Positions 1 through 14,700 of a stretch of 27,749 nucleotides of DNA are shown here, piece after piece. Position 1 is the first letter of the stretch. Each line of letters begins with the position of its first letter. The stretch is taken from the IMG/VR virus record IMGVR_UViG_3300030388_001463, positions 1 through 27,749 of that record; one strand, written 5' to 3'. The translations under genes were made by a program, and so were the position numbers. Source of the stretch: a virus. Under the pieces are notes generated by a model that saw nothing but the letters and a program-made list of their open reading frames with translations, searched no databases and was not told the origin of the DNA.

Positions 1-79
1 GCTCGTTTTCTACAGTTAGATTATATTTAGCCTCTTCTTCAGGAATCCATATAATTTCTAATTCTTCAGTGTCGGGCAT
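1..79 (-). CDS. Partial small acidic protein of unknown function, cut by the left edge
   Basis: The reading frame starts at ATG 79-77 and runs off the window after 26 codons, beginning MPDTEELEIIWIPEEEAKYN. A purine-rich GGAAAAGAAAC precedes the start and can act as ribosome binding site. The start lies inside the end of the preceding small gene (58-189), as in many overlapping junctions here. The visible part is strongly acidic. I do not recognise it, and its length and function cannot be judged from this fragment. Confidence 0.5.
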   Translation of the reverse strand, partial: MPDTEELEIIWIPEEEAKYNLTVENE

Positions 80-189
80 GTTTCTTTTCCATTTTTTTTA
101 TTAAAACTATCAAACATTAAATTACTCATTAGATTCCGAAAATGCGTTATAGGACTCATTACTGTTTTTGTCAGTTGTTTTTTAGCCAT
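58..189 (-). CDS. Small basic hypothetical protein, 43 aa
   Basis: This short frame starts with MAKKQLTKTVMSPITHFRNL and ends at TAG 60-58. Its start is two bases after the stop of the 133-aa gene (192-593), and GAAGGA lies about seven bases upstream, so translation initiation looks real. The protein is lysine-rich, with no transmembrane segment or recognisable motif. It is one of several very small genes at the downstream end of the leftward early operon, a usual place for host-takeover or accessory proteins. That role is a guess from position only. Confidence 0.5.
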   Translation of the reverse strand: MAKKQLTKTVMSPITHFRNLMSNLMFDSFNKKNGKETCPTLKN

Positions 190-191
190 AA

Positions 192-593
192 TTATTCCTT
201 CATCTGTGATGCATACGGATCAGTTGATAGCATGCGTTGTTTTTTATCAGGTTGTACACCAAGTATAATATCTTCTACATTTTTGTGAAAATAATTAACC
301 ATCTGCCCAATAATATTGTCTTGTGATAACGTGTCGGCTAGGTCTTTTAAATCTTCACCATGTTGTAGACAACGTGAGATCAGTTTACCTGATGCTCTTA
401 GCTCGCGATCAAGATAAGAATCGGTTGGTTTAATCTTTACCCAAAATGCCAACGGCGTTACCCCATTATTATCTGCGGTGTAATTTACAATACCTACCAC
501 TTTACGGTCATCTATATTTTGAGTAAAAGTTGTACTCATCATCCGATCTGGAATCTTTGCTCTCACTATCGTATCTTCCTTATTTAAAATCAT
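192..593 (-). CDS. Hypothetical protein, 133 aa; weak resemblance to a ribonucleotide-reductase TSCPD domain
   Basis: A soluble protein with no signal peptide or membrane segment. Its middle reads like an alternating beta region (VVGIVNYTADNNGVTPLAFWVKI) followed by a helix with GKLISRCLQHGEDLKDL. This order resembles the TSCPD accessory domain at the C-terminus of some B12-dependent ribonucleotide reductases, where a phrase like 'GrLiSlaLrsG' follows a beta-rich part. No cysteine-rich TSCPD signature is present, so this is only a lead. The start ATG at 593 overlaps the end of the membrane-protein gene (580-795) by 14 bases. The next small gene begins two bases after its stop, so it is part of the same leftward operon. 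Confidence 0.7.
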   Translation of the reverse strand: MILNKEDTIVRAKIPDRMMSTTFTQNIDDRKVVGIVNYTADNNGVTPLAFWVKIKPTDSYLDRELRASGKLISRCLQHGEDLKDLADTLSQDNIIGQMVNYFHKNVEDIILGVQPDKKQRMLSTDPYASQMKE

Positions 594-795
594 TTTCGTG
601 TTCCTCGATAAATTGCCACAGTTTAATATTCGTATCTTTCACCTGTTCAATTTCGTGCCACATCGTATCTATAGTATGGTTTAGTTTACCTATATATCGA
701 ATATTTACAACCAAAAGTGCTAAACAAAAATACCAGACAATCAGCAATAAAGCTGTGTTAATGTACTTGCCCAGCGGCGGTGAGTATTCTTCCAC
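580..795 (-). CDS. Small single-pass membrane protein, 71 aa, GTG start
   Basis: The frame opens at a GTG (795-793) preceded by GGGAGAAT about seven bases upstream, a better ribosome binding site than any internal ATG has. Residues of about 12-33 (INTALLLIVWYFCLALLVV) form one clear transmembrane helix, followed by a charged, probably helical tail of some 38 residues. With a short hydrophilic N-terminus the topology could be either way. The gene overlaps both neighbours. A function in the host membrane, such as superinfection exclusion or a regulatory role, is possible but not shown. It is far from the lysis genes, which argues against a holin. Confidence 0.65.
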   Translation of the reverse strand: MEEYSPPLGKYINTALLLIVWYFCLALLVVNIRYIGKLNHTIDTMWHEIEQVKDTNIKLWQFIEEHENDFK

Positions 796-922
796 TTACA
801 TTCTCCCAATAGTTTTTCATTAATATTTCATAATTACGTTTCCACATTGTGCGCATGCGTGGACAAGTTGCTTGTGTAAACATGTCTCGACAATTGTTAA
901 TGCGTTTAATTGCTATTACCAT
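758..922 (-). CDS. Small basic hypothetical protein, 54 aa
   Basis: The frame starts MVIAIKRINNCRDMFTQATC and ends at TAA 760-758. A strong GGAGG lies about ten bases before the ATG. The protein is rich in arginine, methionine and aromatic residues, with two cysteines about ten residues apart (C11 and C20), and has no membrane segment. Its last 13 codons overlap the start of the membrane-protein gene in another frame. I do not recognise a family. The good ribosome binding site and the fit between the flanking genes are the main support. Confidence 0.5.
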   Translation of the reverse strand: MVIAIKRINNCRDMFTQATCPRMRTMWKRNYEILMKNYWENVSGRILTAAGQVH

Positions 923-950
923 CCGTACTCATCCTCCGGGTTTAGTGGCA

Positions 951-1229
951 TCACTCTTTACCTACTTCCGGCAAGGTTTCCCCTGACCATTTAATTTTTG
1001 ATTCTCTACCACCTTCTACGTTCTTTCTTGTGTCTTCTATTGGTAGAAATACATAACCACTATGTGTAGTTACTTTCTTACCCATATGTAAAAATTCAAC
1101 CTCACATTGTGGGCAATCTATTTCTTTACCACCATCACCAACAGTTGCAATTACTGGTGCAATTTTAATAAAACCGTTGCCATCACAGCGTGGGCATATT
1201 GTTTCAACTAGCTTTGGCACGTTTTCCAT
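951..1229 (-). CDS. DnaJ-type zinc-finger small protein, 92 aa
   Basis: The N-terminal half carries CPRCDGNGF at about residues 12-20 and CPQCEVEF at about residues 39-46. These match the CxxCxGxG and CxxC halves of one zinc-binding site of the DnaJ central domain. There is no J domain and no second CxxCxGxG pair, so this is a lone finger rather than a co-chaperone. The C-terminal half is hydrophilic and unassigned. The start overlaps the end of the ribbon-helix-helix-like gene by 26 bases. As I recall, the SAR116 phage HMO-2011 has a partial DnaJ central domain in its DNA polymerase; here the finger is a separate gene two genes downstream of the polymerase. A role in protein or nucleic-acid contacts is inference. 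Confidence 0.75.
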   Translation of the reverse strand: MENVPKLVETICPRCDGNGFIKIAPVIATVGDGGKEIDCPQCEVEFLHMGKKVTTHSGYVFLPIEDTRKNVEGGRESKIKWSGETLPEVGKE

Positions 1230-1377
1230 TTTTCTTTTTAGTTTCTTTAATCAACATGAATTCAATAACTTTTTGTATGCTTACCGGCACTTCAAAACGT
1301 TTTTTAGCTAATGATTCCAATTGGTTATGAGTATCCACGGATACTGATACTGATTTAAATTTACTTATATCTGGCAT
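1204..1377 (-). CDS. Ribbon-helix-helix-like small DNA-binding protein, 57 aa
   Basis: The frame starts at ATG 1377-1375 with AAGGAA at good spacing upstream and ends at TGA 1206-1204. Residues of about 6-14 (KFKSVSVSV) form an alternating beta strand, followed by two predicted helices (THNQLESLAKKRF and VSIQKVIEFMLIKETK), then a lysine-rich tail. That is the strand-helix-helix order of CopG/Arc-type repressors, which dimerise through the strand and read DNA with it. It is the first gene after a recognisable promoter with an adjacent palindrome, which suits an autoregulated repressor. The fold call comes from pattern only. Confidence 0.65.
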   Translation of the reverse strand: MPDISKFKSVSVSVDTHNQLESLAKKRFEVPVSIQKVIEFMLIKETKKKNGKRAKAS

Positions 1378-1413
1378 TATTTATTCCTTCTTTTTTGTGT
1401 TATACTATGGGAT

Positions 1414-1441
1414 AATATAGTCATTTTATTTCATTTGACAA
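1414..1441 (-). promoter_or_regulatory. Sigma70-like promoter for the small-gene cluster
   Basis: Read leftward, TTGTCA (5/6 to TTGACA) is followed after 16 bases by TATATT (5/6 to TATAAT). Transcription would begin near 1407, about 30 bases before the ATG of the ribbon-helix-helix-like gene. It lies in the only sizeable non-coding gap of this end of the window, just after the DNA polymerase gene. Confidence 0.6.
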
Positions 1442-1442
1442 G

Positions 1443-1467
1443 AGTTTATTATAATTTATTATAAACT
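1443..1467. promoter_or_regulatory. Palindrome and tandem 10-mer beside the promoter; candidate operator
   Basis: The arms AGTTTAT (1443-1449) and ATAAACT (1461-1467) form an inverted repeat. Read leftward, the inside also holds two adjacent copies of TTATAATAAA. The site abuts the -35 element of the promoter at 1414-1441. Ribbon-helix-helix repressors typically bind short tandem or inverted repeats, so this is a plausible operator for the protein encoded directly downstream. Its very high A+T content means a chance origin is possible. Confidence 0.4.
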
Positions 1468-1487
1468 ATCTTCTCACCTTCATATGT

Positions 1488-1510
1488 CGGATGCTATTTC
1501 TTAGTATCCG
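1488..1510 (-). terminator. Hairpin just after the DNA polymerase gene; possible terminator or processing site
   Basis: CGGATACTA and TAGCATCCG can pair around a 5-base loop (AGAAA on the minus strand) with one mismatch in nine pairs. It begins eight bases after the polymerase stop codon. No run of T follows on either strand, so it is not a classical intrinsic terminator. It may protect the mRNA end or attenuate read-through before the next promoter. Confidence 0.4.
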
Positions 1511-1518
1511 GCATTACT

Positions 1519-3375
1519 TTAGTGTATATCTCCCCAATTAGTACCTTCTTCAAAGTCTACTTTGTTAGGTACCCTTAACTCAACTGCTGCTTCCATAATA
1601 TTAATTATTTTTTCTGCTTGTTCTGGTGACTCTACTGATATGTCAAGTTCATCATGTACTTGTATATGCGGTATGATACCTTCTTGGTATAAAGCCAACA
1701 TAGATTGTTTTGTCATATCTGCAGCACTACCTTGAACCAGTTTGTTTAAAGCTTTGTAGGTAAATGCACGTTTAATGCCCGGGCCATGTTCCCTTAACGC
1801 ATCTGCATGTGGCAATGGTTTCTTAATCCCAAAACCATGTGGCTCCCACAAATCAAAATGACATAAGCGTCCACCTATCGTTCTAATTTTACCGCTATCA
1901 TCAGCGCGCCGTGATACTTGCTCAGATAACATTTTAACAAATGGTGCTTTCTGATGGTAGGTACGAATCAAATCTTCTGCGGCTTCTTTTAGTAAGCCTA
2001 ACTCCGCCATCAATTTGTTTTTACCCATGCCATACATTAAACCTAAGTTAATGGTCTTGGCTTGTTTCCGTTCGATGCCGGCCATGTCTGCAATCATCTG
2101 ATGGAAGTCAGCTTCCCCAGCATTGTACTGATCAACAATAGTTTGTGAACCTTCTAGCTTTAACAGTGATGCAAAGTGCACCACAATTCTTGGCTCTTGT
2201 TGTGAATAATCAAAACAACCCCAAGTATGATTCTTTTCTGGTACAAACAACGCTCTAATCTTTGGTCCTAGATCTTTATTCCGCGCTGGGATCTGTTGTA
2301 GGTTGGGGTTACTATAACTAAAACGACCGGTTACAGTTCCCCCATCGTCCGACCGGATCTGGTTGATATCAGCATGGATACGACCTTTGTGTTCATGCTT
2401 AATAATAGTGTCAATAAAAGTTGTATGGGCTTTGTTAATTTCTCGCGCATGCGCAATTGCTTTCGGCAAATCGTGAGGGTGCGTTGATAAAAAGTTTTTG
2501 GTAAAACTTGGCGCACCTTTCTCCGTTCTATCGTACGGTAATTTAACTTTATCAAAGGCTTTCGCTATGGACGCTGCCGCCCATATCTCAACATCAAAAC
2601 CAACTAGTTTTTGTATCCCCTTATAGATATCTTTTTCCTCTTTGATCAATTCTTGTTTAAGGATGTTGGCTTGCTCAACGTTAACACGAACGCCTTTGAA
2701 CTTCATATCTATTAAACAAGGGAATAAGTTTGTCTCGAGATTAAACACGTCCCATAAGTCCTGTTTACTAATCTCGTGTTGTAATGCGTGCCATAACTTT
2801 AAGGTCACCACAGCATCTTGTTCGGCATACTCACCTACTAATGGTGCGGGTAGTCGCCACATCTCAGCTTTAGGATCTACACCCCAAGCTTTGGCGGCTT
2901 CTTGTAAAATCTTTTCGTTCTTACCCATGCCTACATATTGTTTACCGAGGGTGTTAAGGGCATAACCCCAACGGTTTTCGTCAATTAAAGATGCGGCAAT
3001 TAAAGTATCAATGATACCACCACGAATATAAAAACCCATAGAACGTATCCAAGACACATCATACATTGCATTGTGAAATATTTTTGTTGCATCTGTATGC
3101 AAAACTTCTTCAAACCAATCTAAAACTAATGCTCGGTCCATGTTGCCTCCGCCTTCGTGCGCTATTGGAAAATACCCGGACCAACCTTCAACTGCTACCG
3201 CTATCCCGACCACTTCACCATTGCCATTGACTGAGCCTGAGCCACTATGCTTTAAGCCTGGATCTCTAGTCTCTAAATCTATGGCTATTTCTTTATGATC
3301 TTTTAAATCTGGTAAATGTGTTGGCGGAATCCATTCGGTTTCCGGCGTAAACATTGGTACTTGTAATGGTCTCAT
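1519..3375 (-). CDS. polA: Family A DNA polymerase with 3'-5' exonuclease domain (Leu at the Pol I 762 position)
   Basis: This is the phage replicative polymerase. The N-terminal part is a proofreading exonuclease: D33 and E35 in AIDLETRD, N102 and D106 in FHNAMYD, and Y183xxxD187 in YAEQD. The polymerase domain has motif A (DYSQQEPR, D389), motif B (RKQAKTINLGLMYG, R436, K440, Y448) and motif C (VHDE, H574-E576), so both activities look intact. In motif B the residue four after the lysine is L444, where E. coli Pol I has Phe762. At 618 aa it is compact and has no 5'-3' exonuclease domain, as usual for phage polymerases. Its ATG overlaps the stop of the DUF3310 gene (ATGA), so translation is coupled, and it is the last gene of the replication operon. 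Confidence 0.96.
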   Translation of the reverse strand: MRPLQVPMFTPETEWIPPTHLPDLKDHKEIAIDLETRDPGLKHSGSGSVNGNGEVVGIAVAVEGWSGYFPIAHEGGGNMDRALVLDWFEEVLHTDATKIFHNAMYDVSWIRSMGFYIRGGIIDTLIAASLIDENRWGYALNTLGKQYVGMGKNEKILQEAAKAWGVDPKAEMWRLPAPLVGEYAEQDAVVTLKLWHALQHEISKQDLWDVFNLETNLFPCLIDMKFKGVRVNVEQANILKQELIKEEKDIYKGIQKLVGFDVEIWAAASIAKAFDKVKLPYDRTEKGAPSFTKNFLSTHPHDLPKAIAHAREINKAHTTFIDTIIKHEHKGRIHADINQIRSDDGGTVTGRFSYSNPNLQQIPARNKDLGPKIRALFVPEKNHTWGCFDYSQQEPRIVVHFASLLKLEGSQTIVDQYNAGEADFHQMIADMAGIERKQAKTINLGLMYGMGKNKLMAELGLLKEAAEDLIRTYHQKAPFVKMLSEQVSRRADDSGKIRTIGGRLCHFDLWEPHGFGIKKPLPHADALREHGPGIKRAFTYKALNKLVQGSAADMTKQSMLALYQEGIIPHIQVHDELDISVESPEQAEKIINIMEAAVELRVPNKVDFEEGTNWGDIH

Positions 3376-3674
3376 TTGTATTCCTCTTTTAATTTATTGA
3401 TAAACCAGATCGCTTTGTCTAGGTCCTCAATGGGTTTGCCTTTATGTTCGTGCCGCCAAATATATTTGACTGCACTGCCTTGTAGATAATATTTAAAACC
3501 GTCACCTTGCATAGAAGCAATAGCATCAATACATTGCACTCCGCCTTTATTGTAGTGAGCCGGGTGGTTAACTGGATCATATTTTTTGTAATTTTCTCTT
3601 GTTATATCTTTAACATCTTTAGTTTTAAAATAACCTTCTTTAGTAAACTCTGGTATTCCAAATTTATTTTTCAT
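3372..3674 (-). CDS. DUF3310 protein (T7 gp1.7-like family), about 100 aa
   Basis: The hallmark is NHPAHYNKGGVQCIDAI followed by FKYYLQGSAVKYIWRHEHKG and DLDKAIWFINKL, the conserved core of the DUF3310 family. T7 gp1.7, a member as far as I recall, has nucleotide kinase activity; most other members are untested. Two starts are possible. ATG 3674 is chosen over ATG 3692 because GAAGAGAG sits just upstream of it and the overlap with the HNH-like gene is then only 11 bases. Position directly before the polymerase fits a role in nucleotide supply or DNA replication, but this is inference. Confidence 0.85.
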   Translation of the reverse strand: MKNKFGIPEFTKEGYFKTKDVKDITRENYKKYDPVNHPAHYNKGGVQCIDAIASMQGDGFKYYLQGSAVKYIWRHEHKGKPIEDLDKAIWFINKLKEEYK

Positions 3675-4296
3675 TTTTATTTCTCTCTTCATGCATTTTA
3701 ATTATTAAATAACAGTCCTTTATTTTCACTGCATTTTTTCTATCGTTAAAACCCCAACTACAAAACACAATGTTGTTTTTAGTGTAACCTATCTCAGGGT
3801 CTAAACAATCTACTGACAATTGGTTTTTAGGGGGTTTATTCCTACCAACTTTAGGTGCTATCTTTCTTTGCATAACAAGCGGCTCACCGGTGTAACCACA
3901 AGTTATACCTTGCTTGGCTTTGTGTTGTGTCCACAACTCAAAAAATTCTTCCTGACTTATTAATTCAATTTTTTTATCTGCATTAATTTCTCTAGCTTGT
4001 TTTTTTCTATAACTTTTAAGTATATCGTGGTACTTATTAACTATAAAACCATTTTCGGTGTTTAAATAAGCTATGTTTTGTACCTGCGCTTTATTGCCTT
4101 TTTTTTTACTTTCTTGTTTGTTCCGCAGTAATTTTGCTAGTCTTTTTTCTTTTGACCAAGTATGATATACAATAGTTTCCTTTGCTCTATTAAATTTTCT
4201 TCCAATATCACATAGTTTCATACCAGAATCATATAATTTTTTAATTTCTTTACTTTCTTTTTCTGTTAAATTCGCTTTGTGTGTTCTATATTTCAT
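3664..4296 (-). CDS. HNH-like endonuclease with N-terminal helix-turn-helix, 210 aa
   Basis: Residues of about 10-48 (LTEKESKEIKKLYDSG, CDIGRKFN, ETIVYHTW) look like a resolvase or homeodomain-type helix-turn-helix. The C-terminal third has CGYTGEPLV, then SVDCLDPEIGYTKNNIVFC and N..RKN, the layout of phage HNH nucleases with the usual phrase 'SvDRiD..kGYt.dNvv'. The typical Arg after VD is Cys here. Both ends overlap neighbours (ATGA with the helicase and 11 bases with DUF3310), so the gene is a settled operon member rather than a recent insertion. It could be a free-standing homing nuclease or a recruited replication/packaging nuclease. Catalytic activity is uncertain. Confidence 0.72.
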   Translation of the reverse strand: MKYRTHKANLTEKESKEIKKLYDSGMKLCDIGRKFNRAKETIVYHTWSKEKRLAKLLRNKQESKKKGNKAQVQNIAYLNTENGFIVNKYHDILKSYRKKQAREINADKKIELISQEEFFELWTQHKAKQGITCGYTGEPLVMQRKIAPKVGRNKPPKNQLSVDCLDPEIGYTKNNIVFCSWGFNDRKNAVKIKDCYLIIKMHEERNKNEK

Positions 4297-5801
4297 AATA
4301 GATAGGCCCTTTCATAATTTTTTGGTTCTATAATGTACAATGCTTTCTTGGCACGAGTGACTGCTACATAAAACAACCGGTGCAGTTCATCTGCATCGCG
4401 ATCACTGTGATCAAGAGCAGATTTAGTAATGTCAGGAAATAATAAAACATTGTCAGCTTCGCCTCCTTTGGCGCCATGTATGGTTGATAATATAATTCTT
4501 GGTTCTCTAAAAATATTTTCTTTCTGTGCTAGCATATTTCTAATGTACATTTCCATACGAGTATTTAAACCAGCAAACGAATCATGCCATGGCTTGTCAG
4601 TTTGTAAACCGTGAGCCGATATGCATGTCTCTAGGTTATATTTTAAATCCGCATCTAATGTTTTTGCGGTGCGATAACCTTTAGTAACATTTTCACCTAA
4701 GTAATAATAAATATTTTTTAACTGTATTGCCCCTAAATCTTCACCTTTACGCAATTGTTCCCAACCATGTATGGCAGCTAATAAGTTTTTATTAACGGAA
4801 GGTTTACCTTTGTAAGAAAAATACCAACCTTGTTGATAACACAATTCATTTATCTGATCTAAAAAATGATGGGCTTGGGTTAGCACTAACCATTCACCAG
4901 ATGACATATCTACTTGTGCAATATCTGCATACCTGTGTAACCTACCTATTTCATCCCGTGGTTTGTATTCTTTATCATAGCGATTCTCTACTTGAGCAAT
5001 AATCTTTTGTGATAGTTCATGTATAGGTCCACCTGGAATTCGATACGATTGATCTAAAACTCTAACGTCGTCAACATCATTGCGGAGGGCAATGAAATGA
5101 TCAACATCGGCGCCGGCCCACTTAAAGATTGCTTGATCATCATCTCCAGCAATGTAAGTTTTGTCGGACTTGGCCCACATACTTCTAACCATGCGCCATT
5201 GCAATGGAGATAAATCTTGTGCTTCGTCGATAAACAAGACATCAAAACTTGGGCTGACATCTTGTGTTGTAAAGTTCTCCAACATATCGTCATAATCAAT
5301 CATACCTTTCTCTTCTTTAAAACGGGTAAGTTCTTGGTTTAATAGAAATAATGTGTCACGTTCAACATCTAAGGTGTGTTTATTATCATCATACACATCC
5401 ATTAAATCCCGTTCCATTACTCTAGCTTTATTAATCAATCGTAAATATTCATTGTCAGAATTAAACACCCCATCATTGTCAGAGTGAAACGACATCTTAA
5501 TAGGTATACCAACTTTCAAACCAAACTCTCTATAGTCTTCCGTCTTCATGACACGCTCTTTTTTTATACCGAGCAATCTAAATGCTAGTGAGTGTAGGGT
5601 TCTAAAATAAATTAAATCTTCTTTTGCATCTAAATTAAATTTCTCTGCAGCCCGACTAGCCGCTTCGTGTGCAGCTTTTCGAGTAAAAGAAAAATAACCA
5701 ATACGCTTTGGATCAACCCCGGCCTTCATAAACTGATCTACCAAATTTAGTAGTGTAGTAGTTTTACCGGTACCTGGTGGACCTAAGATAATTGTTTTCA
5801 T
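4293..5801 (-). CDS. UvrD/PcrA-like superfamily 1 DNA helicase, 502 aa
   Basis: All core SF1A motifs are visible in order: Walker A GPPGTGKT at 7-14; motif Ia YFSFTRKAAHEA; Walker B FIDEAQDLSPLQW near 190; motif III AGDDDQAIFKWAGA; motif IV LDQSYRIP; motif V STIHGAKGGEADNV; and motif VI RLFYVAVTRAKKAL near 475-490. It is shorter than bacterial UvrD (about 720 aa), with reduced 1B/2B insertions, as in many phage helicases. It would unwind duplex DNA 3'-5' (family knowledge) for replication or recombination. The ATG shares one base with the stop of the primase gene (TAATG), and the HNH-like gene overlaps its end. With the primase next door and no DnaB-type helicase in the window, it is a candidate replicative helicase. 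Confidence 0.95.
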   Translation of the reverse strand: MKTIILGPPGTGKTTTLLNLVDQFMKAGVDPKRIGYFSFTRKAAHEAASRAAEKFNLDAKEDLIYFRTLHSLAFRLLGIKKERVMKTEDYREFGLKVGIPIKMSFHSDNDGVFNSDNEYLRLINKARVMERDLMDVYDDNKHTLDVERDTLFLLNQELTRFKEEKGMIDYDDMLENFTTQDVSPSFDVLFIDEAQDLSPLQWRMVRSMWAKSDKTYIAGDDDQAIFKWAGADVDHFIALRNDVDDVRVLDQSYRIPGGPIHELSQKIIAQVENRYDKEYKPRDEIGRLHRYADIAQVDMSSGEWLVLTQAHHFLDQINELCYQQGWYFSYKGKPSVNKNLLAAIHGWEQLRKGEDLGAIQLKNIYYYLGENVTKGYRTAKTLDADLKYNLETCISAHGLQTDKPWHDSFAGLNTRMEMYIRNMLAQKENIFREPRIILSTIHGAKGGEADNVLLFPDITKSALDHSDRDADELHRLFYVAVTRAKKALYIIEPKNYERAYLL

Positions 5802-7327
5802 TAAAAAGGTGACTCCTGATAAGGTACCTGACTAACTTCAGCCATAGTTTCTTTCATAGAATTTATTTTAACTACTCGTGGAGTTTGGTTTTTTAATTCC
5901 ATTCTAATCTCACCAACAAAAATTTCTTTCAATTGTGTAATTAAATTATAAGTTTTAGTCTTATCCATCTCCCAATTATTACGTTTTGCAAATGCATAAA
6001 AGTCTTCCATTCTAAAATAAGAAAAACCTTCATCAGTCCAAGCCGTCTTATTAAGTATGTCATCTTTAGTTCTAGCCTTAGCTCTGTGTACAGTGTAGTC
6101 ATACAATAGATTCTCAATTTGAAATTTAGGATTCAATGATTCTAATGGTTCTGTTTCCTGTAAACCTAACATCAATGGTTTTAAATAAATCTCACGCCAA
6201 TCTTTGGCTTTTGGTATAGGTGAGATAACATTTGCTTGATCTAATACTGCTATCGCAAATAAATTCGGATTGTGTAGTTGTTCAGTTTTTAATTCTATTC
6301 GTTTACCACCTACGTTTAAAAACCATTGTGGTGGATTAGAGTTCATTTTAGATAATGTTTCTAGCTCTGGCATTTGTTCTTCTTCAAAACCAACCCCAAA
6401 CTTTTTAGTTCTACACAAAGCTGGATTGCATACACCACAAATAGGCTGGTCTTTACACCTGTATTTATCGTAACCACGTTTACCAATAGAACCCATTAAT
6501 TGTTTTACTTCTTGAAAACTTAATGGTGGATCCATATACTTTTGATTGTCTTCCATAACTTTATCTTCCCAAGTATCTGGATCAGCTTGCTTTCTAAATA
6601 TAGCTACATTAAATAAACCATTATTTCTTGAACCATCACCAAAACCTTCAGCCGCTAATTTATTTAAACAAGGTGGACCATCTTTAAATGCTTCAACCTT
6701 TTTTATAACTTCTTTAGTTACAACTATTTCATGTACCTGTGCTTCTGTTAAAGCTAACTTATCAAAAGTATTACAAAAATCTTCTAAAGAAATAGCCTTG
6801 CCTTCTGCATCCATAGCATAACGCAATCCTCTTATACCACCATGATAAGGTAAGTTTAAAAAGTTTCCGGTATCACCACGTTCTGCTAATATCTCAGTTT
6901 GTTTTGGAAATATTTCTGATCCTTCAAAACCCAATGCCCCTGACATAACTTTTAATTTTGCTTGCATTAAAGCTGCACTAATAAACTCAGAAGTAAATAA
7001 AAATAAGTGTGCACCACCAGATTTTGATCTAAACATTACCAGTGGGAATTTATGGGACTTAATAGAGGCCGCTAGTTTTTTGTGGTCTAATTTATATTCA
7101 TCTACATCAACACACCCCCAACGACACTCATTGTTTTCGTTTATGGGTATAACGCCAAGTGCTGGGTCCTTACCATCTAAATGGTCTTGCCATAGCTGAT
7201 CTGGTATTGATTCACGTTTAATAAACGCCTTACCTATGGCTTTACCTTTTTCGGTTGTCTCACCAGTTAAAATTAACTGGCCATAAGCACTGTTGTTGCC
7301 TTCAAAAATCTTTCTAAAATTTTGCAT
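5801..7327 (-). CDS. Archaeo-eukaryotic-type (TOTE conflict system-like) primase, 508 aa
   Basis: The N-terminal domain carries the AEP catalytic signature: D74 and D76 in GCVDVDEY, then S103 and H107 in RSKSGGAHLF, then EIFPKQTEI near 138-146 and NLPYHGG near 158-164. This spacing matches primases of the TOTE type, known from conflict elements and from some phages. A four-cysteine cluster, C-x5-C-x2-C-x4-C (RCKDQPICGVCNPALC, about residues 294-310), probably binds zinc or an Fe-S centre. The remaining 190 residues are unassigned and may contact the helicase. It would make primers for the PolA replisome. It overlaps the 80-aa gene by 14 bases and couples by TAATG to the UvrD-like helicase. 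Confidence 0.88.
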   Translation of the reverse strand: MQNFRKIFEGNNSAYGQLILTGETTEKGKAIGKAFIKRESIPDQLWQDHLDGKDPALGVIPINENNECRWGCVDVDEYKLDHKKLAASIKSHKFPLVMFRSKSGGAHLFLFTSEFISAALMQAKLKVMSGALGFEGSEIFPKQTEILAERGDTGNFLNLPYHGGIRGLRYAMDAEGKAISLEDFCNTFDKLALTEAQVHEIVVTKEVIKKVEAFKDGPPCLNKLAAEGFGDGSRNNGLFNVAIFRKQADPDTWEDKVMEDNQKYMDPPLSFQEVKQLMGSIGKRGYDKYRCKDQPICGVCNPALCRTKKFGVGFEEEQMPELETLSKMNSNPPQWFLNVGGKRIELKTEQLHNPNLFAIAVLDQANVISPIPKAKDWREIYLKPLMLGLQETEPLESLNPKFQIENLLYDYTVHRAKARTKDDILNKTAWTDEGFSYFRMEDFYAFAKRNNWEMDKTKTYNLITQLKEIFVGEIRMELKNQTPRVVKINSMKETMAEVSQVPYQESPF

Positions 7328-7556
7328 ACTCTATATGATACTCTTTCTGATACTTTCTAATTTTTTCTTTATTCTTCTCTCTATATTCAGCCTGATAGCC
7401 AGACTCTTTCATTAATCTTTTTTTATATTCAATCCCTTCGGGACTGTCCATAAAATTTTTCTTATTATCACGTAAATTTTTTATAGTATTACGTAAACTA
7501 TTAATTACTTGCTTGCGGTAATACTGTTTCTGATAACTTGTTCTGTCTGTCGTCAT
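7314..7556 (-). CDS. Small basic protein of unknown function, 80 aa
   Basis: The protein is rich in Lys, Tyr, Gln and Arg; YQKQYYRKQVINSLRNTIKN and EYREKNKEKIRKYQKEYH are probably long amphipathic helices. Such sequences occur as spacers in homing nucleases and as nucleic-acid-binding small proteins, but no catalytic motif is present here. GGGAGG lies seven bases before the ATG. It is preceded by a strong hairpin whose loop can pair with this ribosome binding site (7562-7604), so its translation may be controlled. It lies between the SSB-like gene and the primase and overlaps the primase start. Confidence 0.65.
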   Translation of the reverse strand: MTTDRTSYQKQYYRKQVINSLRNTIKNLRDNKKNFMDSPEGIEYKKRLMKESGYQAEYREKNKEKIRKYQKEYHIEYAKF

Positions 7557-7561
7557 GTGAT

Positions 7562-7604
7562 ATCCTCCCTCTTCGGTACCGAGCTGGGGGGATAGCTCGG
7601 TACC
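7562..7604 (-). promoter_or_regulatory. Perfect 11-bp hairpin with loop complementary to the downstream Shine-Dalgarno
   Basis: On the minus strand GGTACCGAGCT (7604-7594) pairs perfectly with AGCTCGGTACC (7585-7575) around the loop ATCCCCCC. The ribosome binding site of the 80-aa gene, GGGAGGAT (7569-7562), could pair with that loop at seven of eight positions. No T run follows the stem, so it does not look like an intrinsic terminator. It fills the only gap in the replication operon between the SSB-like gene and the 80-aa gene. The five-base linker is short for a full pseudoknot over an 11-bp stem, so the tertiary pairing is uncertain. Confidence 0.55.
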
Positions 7605-7615
7605 AGTTGTAATGA

Positions 7616-8389
7616 TTAAAATGGTACGTCGTCTTTAGACTTAGTATCACTTTCACCATGTTTTACTTTCACGGTACCTTTAGCACACGATTCAGCAAAC
7701 TTCTTAGCAGCCCCGTACAGATCTTTATCTTGTACTGGACCCACCTTATTAATAGCCCAACCATACCAAGTTCCCTTGTCATTTGATTGTTGAACTGTTT
7801 TAAGGTTATACACGTGACTATATGCAGCCGGTGTGAACATACCATTCTTGCCTTGAAGCTTGATACTGTTCATCATTGAGTTCCATGATCTACTAACTTT
7901 TAATTGTGTAGATTTCATAGAGATCAACGCCGTTTGCACATCTTCTGTAACAACATAATAAGATGCTGTGGTTTCTAGATAGTTACCATTAGGTAACCTA
8001 TCCTTATAATCACCACTGCTTCTAGTTGTTTCCGTCATAATGCCACTATCAACTGAATGAATAGCAACAGGAGCACTAGAGCCTTCACCTCTATCACTCC
8101 ACTCAATGTACTCGCGCTTATAATGGCACGGTATTACATTAAGTCCCTTCTCACCATCATATGCCACTTTAGTCACGGTATTAAATATCATACCTGCTTC
8201 TGCGCCTTCAACATATTTGGCATCCCGTTTGTTAACTTCCGGGGATAGTTGTGCCAATATTCTTAGGAATGGTAATGCAAAGTCATCACTTGACATATTG
8301 TCCATACCTACATTGGCATCTGCCTCAAACATACCTGCTAGAGCTATACTTGAGTTTTCTTTTTTAGTTACTTGTTTTTCTTGAGTCAT
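7616..8389 (-). CDS. Probable single-stranded DNA-binding protein, 257 aa
   Basis: The main clue is the C-terminus: a charged, flexible stretch (KHGESDTKSKDDVPF) ending in DDVPF. It closely copies the acidic tail of bacterial SSB (DDDIPF), which recruits partner enzymes. The preceding 230 residues are a mixed, largely beta-predicted domain with conserved-looking aromatic positions (WSDRGEGSS, YYVVTEDVQTALISMKSTQL, GTWYGWAINKVGP), compatible with an OB-fold, though I cannot assign a named family. AGGAGA precedes the ATG. It lies upstream of primase, helicase and polymerase. A recombination mediator or another replication protein with an SSB-like tail would be the main alternative. Confidence 0.68.
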   Translation of the reverse strand: MTQEKQVTKKENSSIALAGMFEADANVGMDNMSSDDFALPFLRILAQLSPEVNKRDAKYVEGAEAGMIFNTVTKVAYDGEKGLNVIPCHYKREYIEWSDRGEGSSAPVAIHSVDSGIMTETTRSSGDYKDRLPNGNYLETTASYYVVTEDVQTALISMKSTQLKVSRSWNSMMNSIKLQGKNGMFTPAAYSHVYNLKTVQQSNDKGTWYGWAINKVGPVQDKDLYGAAKKFAESCAKGTVKVKHGESDTKSKDDVPF

Positions 8390-8406
8390 TTTTTATTCTC
8401 CTTGGT

Positions 8407-8967
8407 TCATGATTTCCGGCTTATTTTTGTTTGATCTTTCACAAAAGTGTGAAAGAATTCCGAGGGCATATCGAGTCCGGACTCAATACGCTCCCGGTAG
8501 AGTGCTTTCAAAGTCATAGGTTCTACCTTCTGCTTCTGCGAGGGTTCAAAACCCTCTTGCACTGCAAGGCCTAACAATTGTTCTGCCTTGTTATCTTCGC
8601 CCTTCCCGAACTGTACGGCTACCTCATTTTTAATAAGATCGCCAAGTTCGTTTTCACGAAGCCAGTTATAAGCTGATTCGACTGAGTCTTTTTTTACAGT
8701 ACAGCTATAGGTTTTCTTAACCTCTACACCTGAACCGTCAGCTAATTTCAAAGATACTAACCCTTGCTCTGCGAGCAAATTAGGTATTACCTCTGAAGAA
8801 ATTTTGTCTGCTGCTGCTTTTTTTGCTTTGAGTTGTTGTTCTAAAGAATCTATATCGTTCTCTATACCTTGTAACTCTTGACAAAAAGTAGCTAATGTTT
8901 GTATGTCTGTCTTCTCAATCAACTGTTGTTGATCACCTTCTAAGTCTTCTAATGTTATATTACTCAT
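8407..8967 (-). CDS. Coiled-coil replication-module protein of unknown function, 186 aa
   Basis: ATG 8967 is chosen over the upstream in-frame ATG at 9033. It lies two bases after the stop of the previous gene (TAAAAATG), while 9033 would force a 64-base overlap. Residues of about 20-60 (QTLATFCQELQGIENDIDSL, EQQLKAKKAAADKI) form a coiled coil. A compact domain follows with a beta hairpin (VSLKLADGSGVEVKKTY) and helices. There is no catalytic motif. Neighbourhood with the SSB-like gene suggests a DNA-metabolism accessory role, which is inference. Confidence 0.75.
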   Translation of the reverse strand: MSNITLEDLEGDQQQLIEKTDIQTLATFCQELQGIENDIDSLEQQLKAKKAAADKISSEVIPNLLAEQGLVSLKLADGSGVEVKKTYSCTVKKDSVESAYNWLRENELGDLIKNEVAVQFGKGEDNKAEQLLGLAVQEGFEPSQKQKVEPMTLKALYRERIESGLDMPSEFFHTFVKDQTKISRKS

Positions 8968-8969
8968 TT

Positions 8970-9371
8970 TTATTCTGCTTTCTGATATAAGTCTATTGTT
9001 AGTGGGTAGTAAGTTCTCTCTCTTTTGTCCCACTTCAAAAGATTAAATTGTCCTTGAGTTTGATCACTGACAATAGCTGTTGATAAACCGATAATAGCTG
9101 GGTCACCTGTACATAAAATAAAATCCTTAGATGTAAAGTCACGTAAGTTCTTTTGCATTTTAAATATAAATGGTCCAGAACTAAATATTATTTGTGACAA
9201 AGGTGGTAAACAAATTACCAAATAACCAAACTCAGACGCTCCCAAAATATTTATATTTTGAGGAGGGTGCTGTAGTACGTAAACAAAAGTTTCTTTAGGG
9301 TTCTCTTTTTGAAACGCTAAAAAATCTTGTAAACTTTTTGGTTTATAAAGTTCGAATATTTTATTCTTCAT
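8970..9371 (-). CDS. Hypothetical protein of the early operon, 133 aa
   Basis: The protein starts MKNKIFELYKPKSLQDFLAF. It has a hydrophobic beta-rich middle (LGASEFGYLVICLPPLSQII, SSGPFIFKMQ) but no convincing transmembrane helix or signal peptide. FILCTGDPAIIGLS, about residues 83-96, looks like a buried core strand and loop. GGGTGGGAAG precedes the ATG. It lies between the 64-aa and 186-aa genes in the leftward operon with short gaps. I do not recognise a family or function. Confidence 0.7.
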   Translation of the reverse strand: MKNKIFELYKPKSLQDFLAFQKENPKETFVYVLQHPPQNINILGASEFGYLVICLPPLSQIIFSSGPFIFKMQKNLRDFTSKDFILCTGDPAIIGLSTAIVSDQTQGQFNLLKWDKRERTYYPLTIDLYQKAE

Positions 9372-9390
9372 CTTCCCACCCTTCTAGTGA

Positions 9391-9585
9391 TTAGTTTGTT
9401 GGTTCTTCTTCTGGGTAGACATTATCTTTCCCATTTGTAATATTGCTTACATACGCATCTATTTTTTCATTAGCCGCTGCTAACTCTATTTCTTTACCAG
9501 CAACATTAAGTTCCTGTTGTAAAATTTCCTGATTTAATTTTTGTATTTTGTTAACTAATACATTAATGATTTGTTTATCTTCCAT
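9391..9585 (-). CDS. First gene of the leftward operon: small coiled-coil protein, 64 aa
   Basis: The start is placed at ATG 9585 (MEDKQIINVLVNKIQKLNQE), with AGGAG about eight bases upstream. An upstream in-frame ATG at 9630 lies before the predicted transcription start (about 9610) and has no ribosome binding site, so it is rejected. Residues 5-42 show hydrophobic positions spaced for a coiled coil; the tail is acidic (YPEEEPTN). Probably a small oligomeric early protein; function unknown. Confidence 0.7.
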   Translation of the reverse strand: MEDKQIINVLVNKIQKLNQEILQQELNVAGKEIELAAANEKIDAYVSNITNGKDNVYPEEEPTN

Positions 9586-9607
9586 TTTCTTTCTCCTATT
9601 TTTATAG

Positions 9608-9636
9608 TTGACTTTTAATATAAGTATCATTATATA
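9608..9636 (+). promoter_or_regulatory. Rightward sigma70-like promoter for the SNF2 helicase
   Basis: TTGACT (9608-9613) is followed after exactly 17 bases by TATATA (9631-9636), giving transcription from about 9643 and a leader of some 20 bases before ATG 9665. Its -35 and -10 bracket those of the leftward promoter, so the two cannot be occupied at once. Confidence 0.65.
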
Positions 9637-9644
9637 TATGTCAA
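9617..9644 (-). promoter_or_regulatory. Leftward sigma70-like promoter of the replication operon
   Basis: Read leftward, a perfect TTGACA (9644-9639) is followed after 16 bases by TATATT (9622-9617). Transcription would begin near 9610 and reach the 64-aa gene at 9585, then the coupled operon to the polymerase. It overlaps the rightward promoter on the other strand; TTGAC and GTCAA form the outer arms of a 37-bp symmetrical region. Confidence 0.7.
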
Positions 9645-9664
9645 GAAAGAATATAAGATAATTT

Positions 9665-11110
9665 ATGATAAAACATTACAAGTTTAAAACTAAGCCATAC
9701 GACCATCAATTGGTAGCCTTAGAGAAGTCCTGGGCTCAAAAAACTTATGCTTTGTTTATGGAAATGGGTACTGGTAAGTCCAAGGTCCTTGTTGATAACA
9801 TCGCTATGCTGTATGACCGAGGTGCTATTAAAGCTGCAGTAATCGTGGCTCCTAAAGGTGTGTACAAAAACTGGTTTGATATAGAAATTCCAGTGCACTT
9901 GCCGGACCATGTAGAACACACTAAAGTATTATGGGAACCAACTAATAGTAAAAAAAAACAACTAGAACTTGATACATTATTTGATGGTGGAACTGACCTT
10001 AAGATACTGATTATAAACGTAGAAGCATTTTCTACAAAGAAAGGTCTGGACTTTGCGCATAGTTTCCTTAACATATTCTTAGGGAAAGCCCTTTTAGGAA
10101 TTGACGAATCAACGACAATCAAGAATCCGACAGCTAAACGCACAAAAAGTATTTTAAAAATAGGGAATCTAGCGTCGTATCGAAGAATCTTAACTGGCTC
10201 ACCCGTAACGAAATCACCCCTTGACTTATTCAGTCAATGTAAATTCCTGGACCCTTATCATTTAGGCTATGACTCTTACTATGCTTATCGTAGCCGGTAT
10301 GCACATATGTTAGACAGAAATTTTGGTGGCCGCCGCGTACAAATTGTAGGTAGCTATAGAAGATTAGATGAACTAGCTAAGAAATTAGAAAGTTTTTCTT
10401 ATAGAGTTTTAAAAGAAGATTGTTTAGATTTACCAGAGAAAGTATTTGTTACTAGAAATGTAGAACTAACTGATGAACAGAAAAAACTTTACGCTACTAT
10501 GAAGTCAGCAGCGATTGCTATGATTGAAGGTAAGGTTATGAGCTCGGCAAATGCATTAACACAAATGATGCGACTACATCAGATCACTTGTGGCACTTTT
10601 AAAGCTGACGACGGCACTGTTAGACAGGTACCTAGCAACAGATTAAATGAACTTATGAATGTTGTAGAAGAAACTGATGGCAAGGTAATTATTTGGGCTA
10701 CATATAGAGAAGACATCAGAAAAATAGTCGAAGCTCTAAAAAAAGCTTACGGAGAAGCCTCTACAGTAGAGTATCACGGCGGGGTGGATACTACCCTCCG
10801 GCAAGAGGCAATTGCTCTATTTCAGGACGTTAAGGGCCCTACACGCTATTTTGTTGGAAACACACAGACTGGAGGGTATGGAATCACCCTTACTGCAGCT
10901 AACACTATGATTTACTATTCTAACTCATACGACCTAGAGAAAAGACTCCAATCAGAAGATCGAGCGCATCGTATCGGCCAGACTGGCAGTGTTACTTACG
11001 TGGATTTGATTGCAGAAAAGACTATAGATGAACGTATCGTAACAGCACTAAAGAAAAAGGTAAATATTGCAAATGAAATTATGGGCGAAGATCTTAAAGA
11101 TTGGATCTAA
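9665..11110 (+). CDS. SNF2-type superfamily 2 helicase/ATPase, 481 aa
   Basis: The only plus-strand gene. Motifs in order: YDHQLVALEKSW (Q-like region), Walker A GTGKS with K38, VAPKGVYKNW (motif Ia), motif II DEST at D147, TGSPVTKSPLDLF (motif III), then the second RecA domain with VIIWATYRED, YHGGVDTTLRQEAIALFQ, GGYGITLTAANTMIYY (motif V) and SEDRAHRIGQ at about 430-439 (motif VI). This is the SNF2 signature: an ATP-driven DNA translocase rather than a processive helicase. Phage SNF2-like proteins are usually linked with replication or recombination, but a precise role is unknown. It has its own promoter and meets the M15 peptidase gene tail to tail with a 4-base overlap. The ribosome binding site is weak (AAGAAAG). 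Confidence 0.95.
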   Translation: MIKHYKFKTKPYDHQLVALEKSWAQKTYALFMEMGTGKSKVLVDNIAMLYDRGAIKAAVIVAPKGVYKNWFDIEIPVHLPDHVEHTKVLWEPTNSKKKQLELDTLFDGGTDLKILIINVEAFSTKKGLDFAHSFLNIFLGKALLGIDESTTIKNPTAKRTKSILKIGNLASYRRILTGSPVTKSPLDLFSQCKFLDPYHLGYDSYYAYRSRYAHMLDRNFGGRRVQIVGSYRRLDELAKKLESFSYRVLKEDCLDLPEKVFVTRNVELTDEQKKLYATMKSAAIAMIEGKVMSSANALTQMMRLHQITCGTFKADDGTVRQVPSNRLNELMNVVEETDGKVIIWATYREDIRKIVEALKKAYGEASTVEYHGGVDTTLRQEAIALFQDVKGPTRYFVGNTQTGGYGITLTAANTMIYYSNSYDLEKRLQSEDRAHRIGQTGSVTYVDLIAEKTIDERIVTALKKKVNIANEIMGEDLKDWI

Positions 11111-11568
11111 AAAAGAATCGGGGAATAATTTACTTTGCCTGCTATTCTTTCTGCTTTCAGTATTTGTTTTCTCGAATTTCCCGTCGTACTAGAGCAATGT
11201 ACCCAACCTGAGTTGGGATCACCATCAACATAAAATTCTAATATCAATTGATCGAAGTCACAGTTTGTACTTATCCAAGCTGCAAGCTCCTTGTTATCTA
11301 CAGAATGTATTTCAAAGTCTGCAGCCTCACCCCGGGCGTGTTGTGAGTTAACCGAAGAACCAATAGCCTCGCACAACGTAGGGCTGCGATAGCCTGAGGA
11401 TATCATAACCGGCTTACCAAAATGCTCGCGCACTGGTTGCAGGATAGTTTTCGCTAGGTGAATAAGATTCTCTACATGCTCAGTTGAAGGTTCATTATGA
11501 ATTCCTTTACGAGTTGCAGTTTGTGATTTAGTTAATTCGTTTAGTGTAAAATTATTTGATAAATTCAT
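11107..11568 (-). CDS. M15-family peptidase endolysin, 153 aa
   Basis: The fold signature of peptidase M15_3 (D-Ala/L-Ala-D-Glu type carboxypeptidase) is clear: VMISSGYRSP, then SQHARGEAADFE giving zinc ligands H77 and D84, and GWVHCS giving H124. It would cut the peptide stems of host peptidoglycan at lysis, or early during entry. There is no signal peptide, so export needs the holin. Its start shares a base with the stop of the membrane protein upstream (TAATG). The stop overlaps the convergent SNF2 gene, so this is the last gene of the late operon. Confidence 0.92.
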   Translation of the reverse strand: MNLSNNFTLNELTKSQTATRKGIHNEPSTEHVENLIHLAKTILQPVREHFGKPVMISSGYRSPTLCEAIGSSVNSQHARGEAADFEIHSVDNKELAAWISTNCDFDQLILEFYVDGDPNSGWVHCSSTTGNSRKQILKAERIAGKVNYSPILF

Positions 11569-11789
11569 TATAACAATCCTATTAATCCTTCAATAACAAT
11601 TAAACCAACGGCCCCCACCGTAGTTAAAACAACCCAATAGATTTTATCTATCTTGCCACCCAATTTCTCCACGTCTCTGTGCACATGTAAAACGTCTTGC
11701 TTTAAGTTTTCTACTTCTCTTTTCACCCCAGTTATATGTCCTTGTATTGAAATTATATGTTCGCGTTCTGTTTTAGGTTCCATTTCCAT
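11568..11789 (-). CDS. XhlA-like holin accessory: coiled coil with C-terminal membrane anchor, 73 aa
   Basis: Residues 8-48 are a continuous amphipathic helix (HIISIQGHITGVKREVENLK, LHVHRDVEKLGGKIDKI), and residues of about 49-73 (YWVVLTTVGAVGLIVIEGLI) form one C-terminal transmembrane helix. This architecture is that of haemolysin XhlA-type proteins, which act in phage lysis. It sits directly before the M15 endolysin and both junctions are TAATG overlaps, which supports a lysis cassette. Whether it forms the hole itself or only assists cannot be told; no second holin is visible in the window. Confidence 0.72.
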   Translation of the reverse strand: MEMEPKTEREHIISIQGHITGVKREVENLKQDVLHVHRDVEKLGGKIDKIYWVVLTTVGAVGLIVIEGLIGLL

Positions 11790-14700
11790 TATACAGTTCC
11801 CCTCTGTCTTTGTCGAATAAGTTGTTCGTCTCTATCTAATAAAGCACTTTCCGTAGATGTCAATCCCGTTGCTTGATCTACTACACCTGCTGCTGGTTGC
11901 GCTGCAGCTACATCAACTGGTTTTGATTCAGGCAGCGGTGCTACTGGTGGTGGCGCTTGAGATATTTCTTGCGTTGTAACAGGAGCTTCTACTGCAGATT
12001 GTTGCTCAGGTTTTTTATTTTGTTCTTCAAATTTTTCAAAAGATAAATAATCCCATTTATTTTTTTCAGACTCTAAAGCACCAAATGGATGAAAATAAGA
12101 AAAACCATAACTTCTTGCATCAGGATCGTTTCTTTTTATTTTGGTATATCTACCTTCAAGACCGCCTCGGCCCCAAGAAACAGCTCTATATCTACCAGAC
12201 ATAATTGCACCAACTGTTAATTTTGATAAACCACGACCAGAAAGAACGGTGATAATTTTAGCGTCAGTCATAAATCTATTTGCCCGTAAGTTTTTTACCA
12301 TTTTATAAAATTCATATTGTTGCCTAAAAGCTTGTTCATTTTGAACTCTATATTCCTTTACGATTTGTTCTGGTCCTCTTTGTCGCCAATCTTTTGCACT
12401 ATAAAAGCCTCTACCCATTTTAGGTTGAACTAAGCTTCTTGCAAACTCTCCCATTTTATAATCAAAATTAGCTGGTATATCTATTTTTACATCCGATCCA
12501 CCAAGTAGTTTTATTATTTCAGAATTTAATTCTATAGGCTGCCCTGATCCAGATACATCTCCTTGTAATGCGTTAAAGATTCTTTTACCCGTGCTAACAA
12601 TACCAGGTTCAATAGTAGTAAAAAAATGTGCCATGGCTTTGTCAAACTTTTCACTGTCTAACATACCTTCATTCCAAATAACACTACCTTCACGGGTTTT
12701 TCCATTTTTAGCTTCTTGAAAAGCCTCTAAACCAATTGGTATACTTAAAAAAGTTCCAGTTGTTGCATCCCACAAAGGACTAATTGTTTTAAACATACTT
12801 TCAAAAACATTTGTTGGTATTTTACTAGGGTCTAGTTTTCTATTAGCATCATAAAAAATTTTTAATTTTTTTAATTCTTTTCTTCTAGCTTGCATTTCTT
12901 CAGAAGAAGGATCAATACCTTGGTCTATTAAAGTTAAATATTCTTCTCTTTTATTAGCTAAATTAGTATCTACATTAGCTCTTTCATTAGACGCCATTAA
13001 AGAATTAGCTGATGAAATAAGTATGTCGTATGGATTAAACCTAGATAAATCAAACACTGTAAAAACACCATTTTTAATATTACTAGTAGGCACTAAAGTA
13101 CTGTTTTTCATATAGTCTGGTGCAAAAAATTGTTTAAAAGAATCTACGTTAGTCTGTGTAACATTAGTCATAGCATATCCAATTCCTTGTACTCCTTGAT
13201 TAAGGGCACCTAAAGTAATTGCTTGCCCCGCTAAACTTCGGTAACCCATTTCTCTAAGACCAACATTATCCGAAGCAATATGTTTCATAGCTATACTACT
13301 AGTTGCAAAACCAGTTCTTAATATTTCAGCCGTAAAAGATACAAAATTACCTAAAGGTAATTTTCTTAATGCTTTAATTACTTCAGGTACTTTACTATAA
13401 GTAGGGTATGTTTCTCTTAGTAATATTGCAGCCGCTTCTTCTATACCATCTTCAAAAGTTTTAATACTACCGGTATTTATATTTCTTGTACCTATATCAA
13501 CACCATGTGTGTTTTTCAGGTAAGAAGAAATTTCATCAAAGTTTTTAAACACGCCTTTTAATTGTGACATATAAAATTCATGGCCATACCATTTCCAAAC
13601 GTTATCACCTCCTGCATATATTCTTGTAGCTTGTTTATAAAATTTAGAATTGTTAGCAGCTTTTGCTAAATCTCTAAATGATTTAAAACTACCTTTTTTT
13701 AAATCTTCTAAAATTGCATTAAGTTCTGAAGCTACAATATTTTCATCTAAAACACCTAGTTCAACTTTTCTTTGAGTTCTTTTTATTAAACTAGCTTCAT
13801 CAACAGTTTTACCTGCACCAAATATATCATCCATTATAATTTTAAAAGAATCTGTTACCGAAGCACCCCCACCAATATGACCATTAAACATAGGAAAAGC
13901 ACCTGCACTTAAAAAATTACGAGTTTGTGTAGCAGGAGAGAATACCGTCTTACCTGTTTGCACTGCTGCCTTATAGGCAATAAGGCCTTGATACATTTCA
14001 ACTTGTAATAAACTATCCAACACACCACCGGTACCTAAAAAAGTATTAACCATTTCTTTAGAACCATATAAACCAACCGGACCACCTTTAGAGGTTAATG
14101 CTTCTGATTCTAACAATCCAAGACCAGGAACCCTACCTATTGGTAAAGGCTCAATTATTCCTGCCGCTGTTGCTTCTGCTCTAGTTTCAAATAAGTAACC
14201 ATCACGTAAACCTTGCTTAGCAGTTTCGCGCCACGATCTTAAATTAGAAGTTTGCGTTACTAAACTACCTGCAGTAGTCATAACAGAATTACGTAAATTA
14301 TTTTCTTGACCTAATAATTCTCTAAGAACTTTTGGTAGTTCTTCTCCAGTGTTAATAATAATATCATCGTTTCTAACAAACTCTTTATTAATTCTATTTA
14401 AAACATCTAGAGGGTCCCTGCCTTCTGTTTTACCTAAAGCAATAATACTATCTACATTTTGCTGTGCAAAATTTCTAATTGCTTGTTCACCAGGTAAGTC
14501 ACTGCCTTTTAAAGCTACCTCCCTTAAGTCTTCATTCTTTCTAATTATATTAACCATAAAATCTACCGCGTTATTTACTACTTCTGGTGAAGCTTTGTAT
14601 GCTGCATTATTAAAAGTAGCAAAAGACATTCTCATATATTTATCTAAATTAGATTCTATACTTTCCCTTAAACCTCCGCCCATAGGTAGTTCAGATGCAT

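Follow-up and report, generated by a model that had tools for sequence, protein, structure and literature searches.

What does a leucine at the position of E. coli Pol I Phe762 tell about a phage, and how does a family A DNA polymerase work with it? Both questions are raised by a polymerase gene in the window, by which we mean the whole stretch of viral DNA analysed (27,749 bases). An earlier note on this DNA had placed a leucine at the 762 equivalent and pointed, correctly, to the virioplankton literature that ties Phe, Tyr and Leu at this position to different lifestyles. The gene and its motifs lie as follows.

1519..3375, minus strand: family A DNA polymerase (PolA), 618 amino acids, with a 3′-5′ exonuclease and a polymerase domain (Pfam, PHROG 17, AlphaFold2 model, Foldseek to 7pbk and Klenow)
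2188..2211, minus strand: motif A, DYSQQEPR (D389-R396), with Q393 = 709, E394 = 710 (steric gate) and P395 = 711 (codon 2191-2193) (alignment; coordinates computed from the ORF start)
2029..2070, minus strand: motif B or O-helix, RKQAKTINLGLMYG (R436-G449) (sequence, alignment, AlphaFold2 model)
2044..2046, minus strand: Leu444 codon, TTA, at E. coli position 762 (sequence and alignments)
1648..1656, minus strand: motif C, HDE (H574-E576), with the catalytic Asp (alignment; coordinates computed from the ORF start)

The product matches DNA_pol_A (PF00476; E = 2.7e-61, 208 bits against a cut-off of 34.3), DNA_pol_A_exo1 (PF01612; E = 2.2e-13) and PHROG 17 (E = 2.7e-114), and no 5′ nuclease domain was found by Pfam in its 618 residues. 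The key residues of family A are present: D389, E394, R436, K440, Y448 and D575 are the equivalents of E. coli Asp705, Glu710, Arg754, Lys758, Tyr766 and Asp882. An AlphaFold2 model built from 21 sequences has a mean pLDDT of 90.1, and its residues 436-448 form a single helix, as expected of the O-helix. The best solved-structure matches of the model in Foldseek were phiVC8 DpoZ (7pbk, TM 0.78-0.81) and Klenow (1d8y, TM 0.78-0.80).

The phmmer alignment to Klenow sets Leu444 opposite Phe762. No gap interrupts the pairing of R436, K440, L444 and Y448 with E. coli residues 754, 758, 762 and 766, either here or in a repeat with a five-sequence profile. At the level of aligned sequences, Leu444 is thereby confirmed as position 762; sequence alignment carries this assignment, as the Foldseek matches came without a residue-by-residue superposition. 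The interval formerly given for motif B, 2029-2066, starts correctly but ends short by R436 and one base of K437 (the true end is 2070). The motif is read from the minus strand, and the plus strand there has two stops in the frame of the first base.

Among 80 close relatives fetched, the catalytic motif residues are kept in 79, and all 79 have Leu762; the dropped relative also has Leu at 762, but Asn at 758. A sequencing slip as the source of Leu762 is ruled out by these relatives, the dropped one included, and an alignment slip by the gap-free stretch R436-Y448. A cellular Pol I was likewise ruled out, because the protein has 618 residues without a 5′ nuclease hit, and all 35 cellular PolAs read (the best-scoring matches, not a random draw) combine Phe762 with Leu or Met711. 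We take Leu762 to be a character that became fixed in this lineage long ago, not a switch of lifestyle. The leucine-type polymerase of the window is a fresh member of an already published type and, as such, ordinary.

Klenow of E. coli Pol I has motifs A, B and C and the exonuclease domain in common with the window PolA (24-26% identity in the structural matches), but carries Phe762, Ile709 and Leu711. DpoZ of phiVC8, a 2-aminoadenine phage polymerase (PDB 7PBK), has the family A fold and is the best structural match. The text of PMC8599892 describes L455 and F459 in its helix O, with F459 replacing the conserved Tyr, and by our own reading of that text, L455, four residues before F459, takes the place of 762. 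The phiVC8 type thus has Phe at the 766 place, whereas the window has Tyr766, and the Bm1 group, taken as phiVC8 relatives, has Val711, whereas the window has Pro711. The Bm1-like PolAs (Burkholderia phage Bm1, L094, and L428-L438) have Leu762 and no Pro711; in Bm1 itself, the 766 place is occupied by Phe, and polA adjoins a gene with the annotation 2-aminooxy adenylosuccinate synthetase. The Bm1-like phages are probably 2-aminoadenine (DpoZ-type) phages.

The identity of the window phage was approached through the genes around polA.

3372..3692, minus strand: DUF3310 protein (PF11753, E = 1.8e-17)
3664..4296, minus strand: HNH-type endonuclease with an N-terminal HTH (phrog_3118, E = 6.6e-11; HTH_38 below cut-off)
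4293..5801, minus strand: UvrD-type SF1 helicase (PF00580, E = 3.9e-31)
5801..7327, minus strand: AEP-type primase (PF22548, E = 4e-11; phrog_21866, E = 8e-91)
9665..11110, plus strand: SNF2-type SF2 helicase (PF00176, E = 2.9e-20; best phage matches psg01, HTVC027P, DSL-LC04 and HTVC023P)

The AEP primase, UvrD helicase, HNH endonuclease, DUF3310 protein and PolA form a replication block, with the SNF2 helicase on the opposite strand. The nearest PolAs among 50,697 phage records are those of 023Pt_psg01 (69% identity), HTVC027P (57%), HTVC023P (52%) and DSL-LC04 (50%). A structural protein at 23246-25408 has the same four phages as its top relatives, as PolA and the SNF2 helicase do. The PolA tree joins the window first to psg01 (100/98) and next to HTVC027P (100/96); HTVC023P belongs to the broader QEP clade, and other phages lie in between. 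The HTVC023P-type pelagiphages (HTVC027P, HTVC023P and 023Pt_psg01) share with the window the primase-helicase-PolA order, Leu762 and the QEP motif A. In contrast, the window has an HNH gene (3664-4296) between the UvrD helicase and DUF3310, at a place where the annotated records of psg01, HTVC027P and HTVC023P show no gene of its size.

No nucleotide-level match to window positions 1-12000 was found in the phage collection, and the host is therefore read from protein kinship only. HTVC023P-type phages have a mean genome of 58.8 kb according to the text of PMC9599517, in which genome searches started from PolA; against this mean, the 27,749 bases of the window are about half a genome. An exact terminal repeat of 9-200 bases was not found in the window. 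A further comparison is offered by the Leu762 Group II of virioplankton PolAs, in which, as the text of Nasko et al. (2018, PMC6302109) states, UvrD is a neighbour in 68% and SNF2 in 45%, and UvrD never occurs without SNF2. The window has Leu762 and the SNF2-like and UvrD-like helicases near polA in common with this group, and no tested feature differs; the likeness comes from the residue and the neighbourhood, not from a joint tree. Scans of 20 ORFs against Pfam and of 20 against PHROGs, out of 55 listed in this approximate half genome, revealed no ribonucleotide reductase.

Considering these relationships, we assign a probability of about 0.85 to the reading that this PolA is the replicative polymerase of an HTVC023P-type marine phage of Leu762 Group II, which is most likely obligately lytic and whose protein kinship suggests that its host is probably SAR11. 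The polymerase would work with the phage's own AEP primase and its UvrD and SNF2 helicases. Deoxynucleotides would probably be taken from the host, since a ribonucleotide reductase was not seen among the scanned ORFs, and the enzyme would be active in a Leu762 background with motif A (Gln709-Glu710-Pro711) remodelled around the steric gate. Elsewhere in the window, positions 11789-18385 on the minus strand encode a protein of 2,198 residues with no PHROG match. Only its residues ~1210-2035 have weak relatives, in nine phage records, one of which (among the eight listed) is annotated as an ADP-ribosyltransferase; it is probably a virion-internal protein.

The lytic assignment bears on the proposed meaning of the leucine. 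That Leu762 phages are mainly temperate is a published idea (Schmidt 2014, as cited in the texts of PMC6302109 and PMC13228545), and the earlier note had linked the residue to slower or temperate phages. Two phages of a common host, Pelagibacter HTCC1062, run in the opposite direction: HTVC027P has Leu762 without an integrase match and is described in the text of PMC12753301 as obligately lytic with a latent period of ~18 h, whereas HTVC022P has Tyr762 and an integrase and is described there as temperate with a latent period of ~15 h. Comparison with PolAs of phages of known lifestyle, which the earlier note had called for, therefore leaves the step from Leu762 to temperate unsupported. A slower phage is compatible with the two latent periods, although genome size and much else differ between these phages. 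Bradyrhizobium phages that have Leu762 and act as virulent are reported in the text of PMC12656738, whose authors leave lysogeny open.

The remark that no integrase is visible holds for the window, with no match to PF00589 or PF00239 in what is about half of a genome; the same two families gave none in HTVC027P, HTVC023P, psg01 and DSL-LC04 (0/4). In a set of 27 named phage records, 0 of 9 Leu762, 3 of 15 Phe762 and 1 of 3 Tyr762 phages had a tyrosine or serine integrase domain. A further 50 larger viral records were hand-picked by length and group from ~90 longer ones, and 48 of these were readable at 762; the two others end before this position, have no integrase and were left out of the residue counts. 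In this hand-picked set, the Leu762 records with an integrase numbered 0/26 for QEP, 2/7 for IEP (Hetaeria-like) and 0/3 for DpoZ-like enzymes, against 4/8 for Phe762 and 4/4 for Tyr762 (together 8/12). The Tyr762 rows derive mostly from a single seed alignment whose first entry is the temperate Unn; the Tyr integrase count is thus inflated, and the set, being seeded from a temperate pelagiphage, is no fair sample of Tyr762 phages. Absence of an integrase refers throughout to the two Pfam families, which a plasmid-like or transposing temperate life would escape.

An integrase could sit in the missing half, because the window is a 27.7-kb fragment without an exact terminal repeat. In that case, the published association would hold, and Leu762 would mark a phage that is temperate, or slow and pseudo-temperate. 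A Leu762 PolA is indeed found beside an integrase at four of six places in bacterial genomes, and two of seven Hetaeria-like Leu762 records carry one (L491 and L487, the other five having no PF00589 match). However, these integrase-linked enzymes are of other lineages (Ala, Gly or Val at 711, or the Hetaeria-like I-E-P) and stand outside the window's clade where they were placed, whereas the window's own type has no integrase in its 26 larger records or its four named relatives, and the temperate pelagiphage HTVC022P is a Tyr762 phage. We consider a temperate window phage very improbable. Since a Leu762 lineage beside integrases exists separately from the window's clade, residue 762 alone does not decide lifestyle; lifestyle tracks lineage, and a lytic Leu762 phage is the better reading of the window.

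The bacterial genomes were overlapping draws of 60 and 398 from one phylum, from which six places that carry a phage-type PolA were read. Leu762 is present in all six, in five by motif match and in L597 by alignment, confirmed by reading its sequence as far as Leu762. Four of them (G067, G224, G312 and contig 71 of G057) have a PF00589 match no more than ~4 kb from polA, one on a 4.95-Mb contig. Because these genomes hold 7-27 PF00589 matches each, we estimate the chance of one falling within 4 kb at a few per cent per genome. The prophage-type Leu762 PolAs have I-E-A, I-E-G or Q-E-V as motif A. In a tree with cellular PolAs as the outgroup and without the long branch L598, the other five cluster together (support 100), apart from the window's clade. 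The integrase-adjacent Leu762 lineage, with Ala, Gly or Val711, consists of L596 (G067:C19), L608 (G224:C1), L609 (G312:C66) and L598 (G057:C71). In L597 (G095:C10, a 1005-residue frame), an insert of ~350 residues interrupts motif B two residues past Leu762; it opens intein-like with Cys-Leu-Ser-Pro-Asp-Thr and is a candidate intein. No proven provirus of the window's type was found among 37 loci from the genome-contig scan, because their titles are those of MAGs or single-cell genomes and the contigs are mostly of phage-genome length or less. Two contigs of an Anaerolinea MAG (L439 and L440, 112 and 81 kb) encode a PolA 93% identical to that of Pseudomonas phage PSP2. They are likely contigs of YuA-like phages that were binned with the MAG, and possibly one phage twice.

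A second residue usually accompanies the leucine. In the isolate alignment, motif A is Q-E-P in seven of nine Leu762 enzymes, whereas Phe762 and Tyr762 enzymes have, for example, I-E-Y or L-E-L. For larger counts, 548 PolA places were read, including the window again (L001, left out), and eight of the 547 rows were removed for lacking the Asp of motif A, the Lys of motif B or the Asp of motif C. In the remaining 539 rows, Pro711 occurs in 375 of 386 with Leu762 and in none of 153 others. Since some contigs had been fetched by two scans, the rows were reduced to 462 distinct polymerase stretches, with Pro711 in 322/333 Leu762 sequences against 0/129 others. Without scan A1, whose search pattern included motif A, the counts are 245/256 and 0/129, and among 94 representatives at 70% identity they are 58/66 and 0/28. 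The 11 Leu762 sequences without Pro711 have Val711. When the 94 representatives were divided into eight clade groups, which keep the big clade from dominating, Pro711 was the best of 377 other columns covarying with 762; it is present in 100% of three Leu762 groups and in 0% of the DpoZ-like and the four non-Leu groups.

More generally, a 72-row set has Pro, Val, Ala or Gly at 711 in 43 of 43 Leu762 rows, and Leu, Tyr, Phe or Met in 26 of 29 others. A small residue at 711 does not alone imply Leu762, because Val711 occurs in 22 of 129 non-Leu762 sequences of the larger set. As a universal partner of Leu762, Pro711 is refuted by the prophage-type and DpoZ-like rows, and we regard it as a strong partner in some lineages. 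We found no mention of the link in literature listings or in the running texts of PMC13228545, PMC9069017 and PMC6302109, but it may be in print elsewhere.

In family A, the aromatic ring at 762 packs against the incoming nucleotide's sugar and assists Glu710 in excluding ribonucleotides, as described in the texts of PMC13228545 and PMC9324360. The corresponding Tyr526Leu change in T7 cost 97% of the activity and left the phage without plaques (text of PMC13228545, a 2026 preprint), whereas five of eight native Leu762 enzymes extended primers (text of PMC9069017). Native Leu762 enzymes should therefore hold some substitute for the ring, and the preprint singles out the changes by which natural Leu762 enzymes compensate as an important line of work. 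The available text of two Thermus phage papers yielded nothing on Leu762. In the AlphaFold2 model, residue 390 closes the motif A strand and residues 393-404 form the next helix, which would put Pro395 (711), the neighbour of Glu394 (710), near the beginning of this helix. In such a position, a proline would fix the backbone that bears the steric gate; a ternary structure of an enzyme of this kind was looked for in vain.

Trees built without the trait columns give ~4 changes each for Leu762 and Pro711. The AU test rejected a single clade for all Pro711 rows (p = 0.016) and, marginally, a union of the main clade with the VD13 clade (p = 0.046). It did not reject a main clade from which its associated Phe762 clade was excluded (p = 0.41); the tested groups were named after the tree was seen. 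The independent pairs, two on supported branches and four on all branches, are too few for a sign test.

Two accounts of the pairing have to be weighed against these results. Common descent only, with both residues fixed in a few old polymerase lineages and no functional linkage between them, has about even odds in our judgement, as the independent origins are few, the union of the main and VD13 clades is only marginally rejected, and the main clade without its grouped Phe762 clade is compatible with the data. It does not readily explain why Pro711 stands out among columns of equal ancestry, why it adjoins the steric gate, or why the Phe762 clade grouped with the main Leu clade (BP63, VpKK5 and R5C) lacks it. 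We tentatively propose, at somewhat short of an even chance, that Pro711, together with Gln709, helps to compensate for Leu762 and holds the steric gate against a sugar that no aromatic ring packs. The near-complete association among distinct sequences, the rank of the column, the complete presence in three Leu762 groups, the rejected one-clade origin and the modelled helix starting at this very site all point to such a role. On the other side, about four changes per state leave two to four independent pairs, which cannot reach significance; the DpoZ-like (Val711, 11 rows) and prophage-type (Ala, Gly or Val711) Leu762 lineages manage without Pro711; and, with AU groups named post hoc, common ancestry could account for much of the pattern. 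Under the compensation proposal, a remodelled motif A would keep native Leu762 polymerases active, with Pro711 (often with Gln709) possibly taking over part of the ring's positioning of the sugar, and a generally small residue at 711 permitting Leu762; we hold this, too, as a conjecture that may well fail.

Residue 762 serves to guess phage lifestyle from metagenomes, and the guess can be reversed, as in the same-host SAR11 pair. Inferring a temperate life from Leu762 alone is therefore unsafe for the abundant marine lineage, given that the comparison includes two phages of one SAR11 host. The 711-762 pairing is the part of the case worth a bench test, and Pro711 beside the steric gate is a concrete candidate for the compensation that the text of PMC13228545 calls for. 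If the proposal is true, the pair of residues 711 and 762, and not 762 alone, would sort the types of phage PolA, and the versions with a non-proline residue at 711 would include prophage and 2-aminoadenine lineages.
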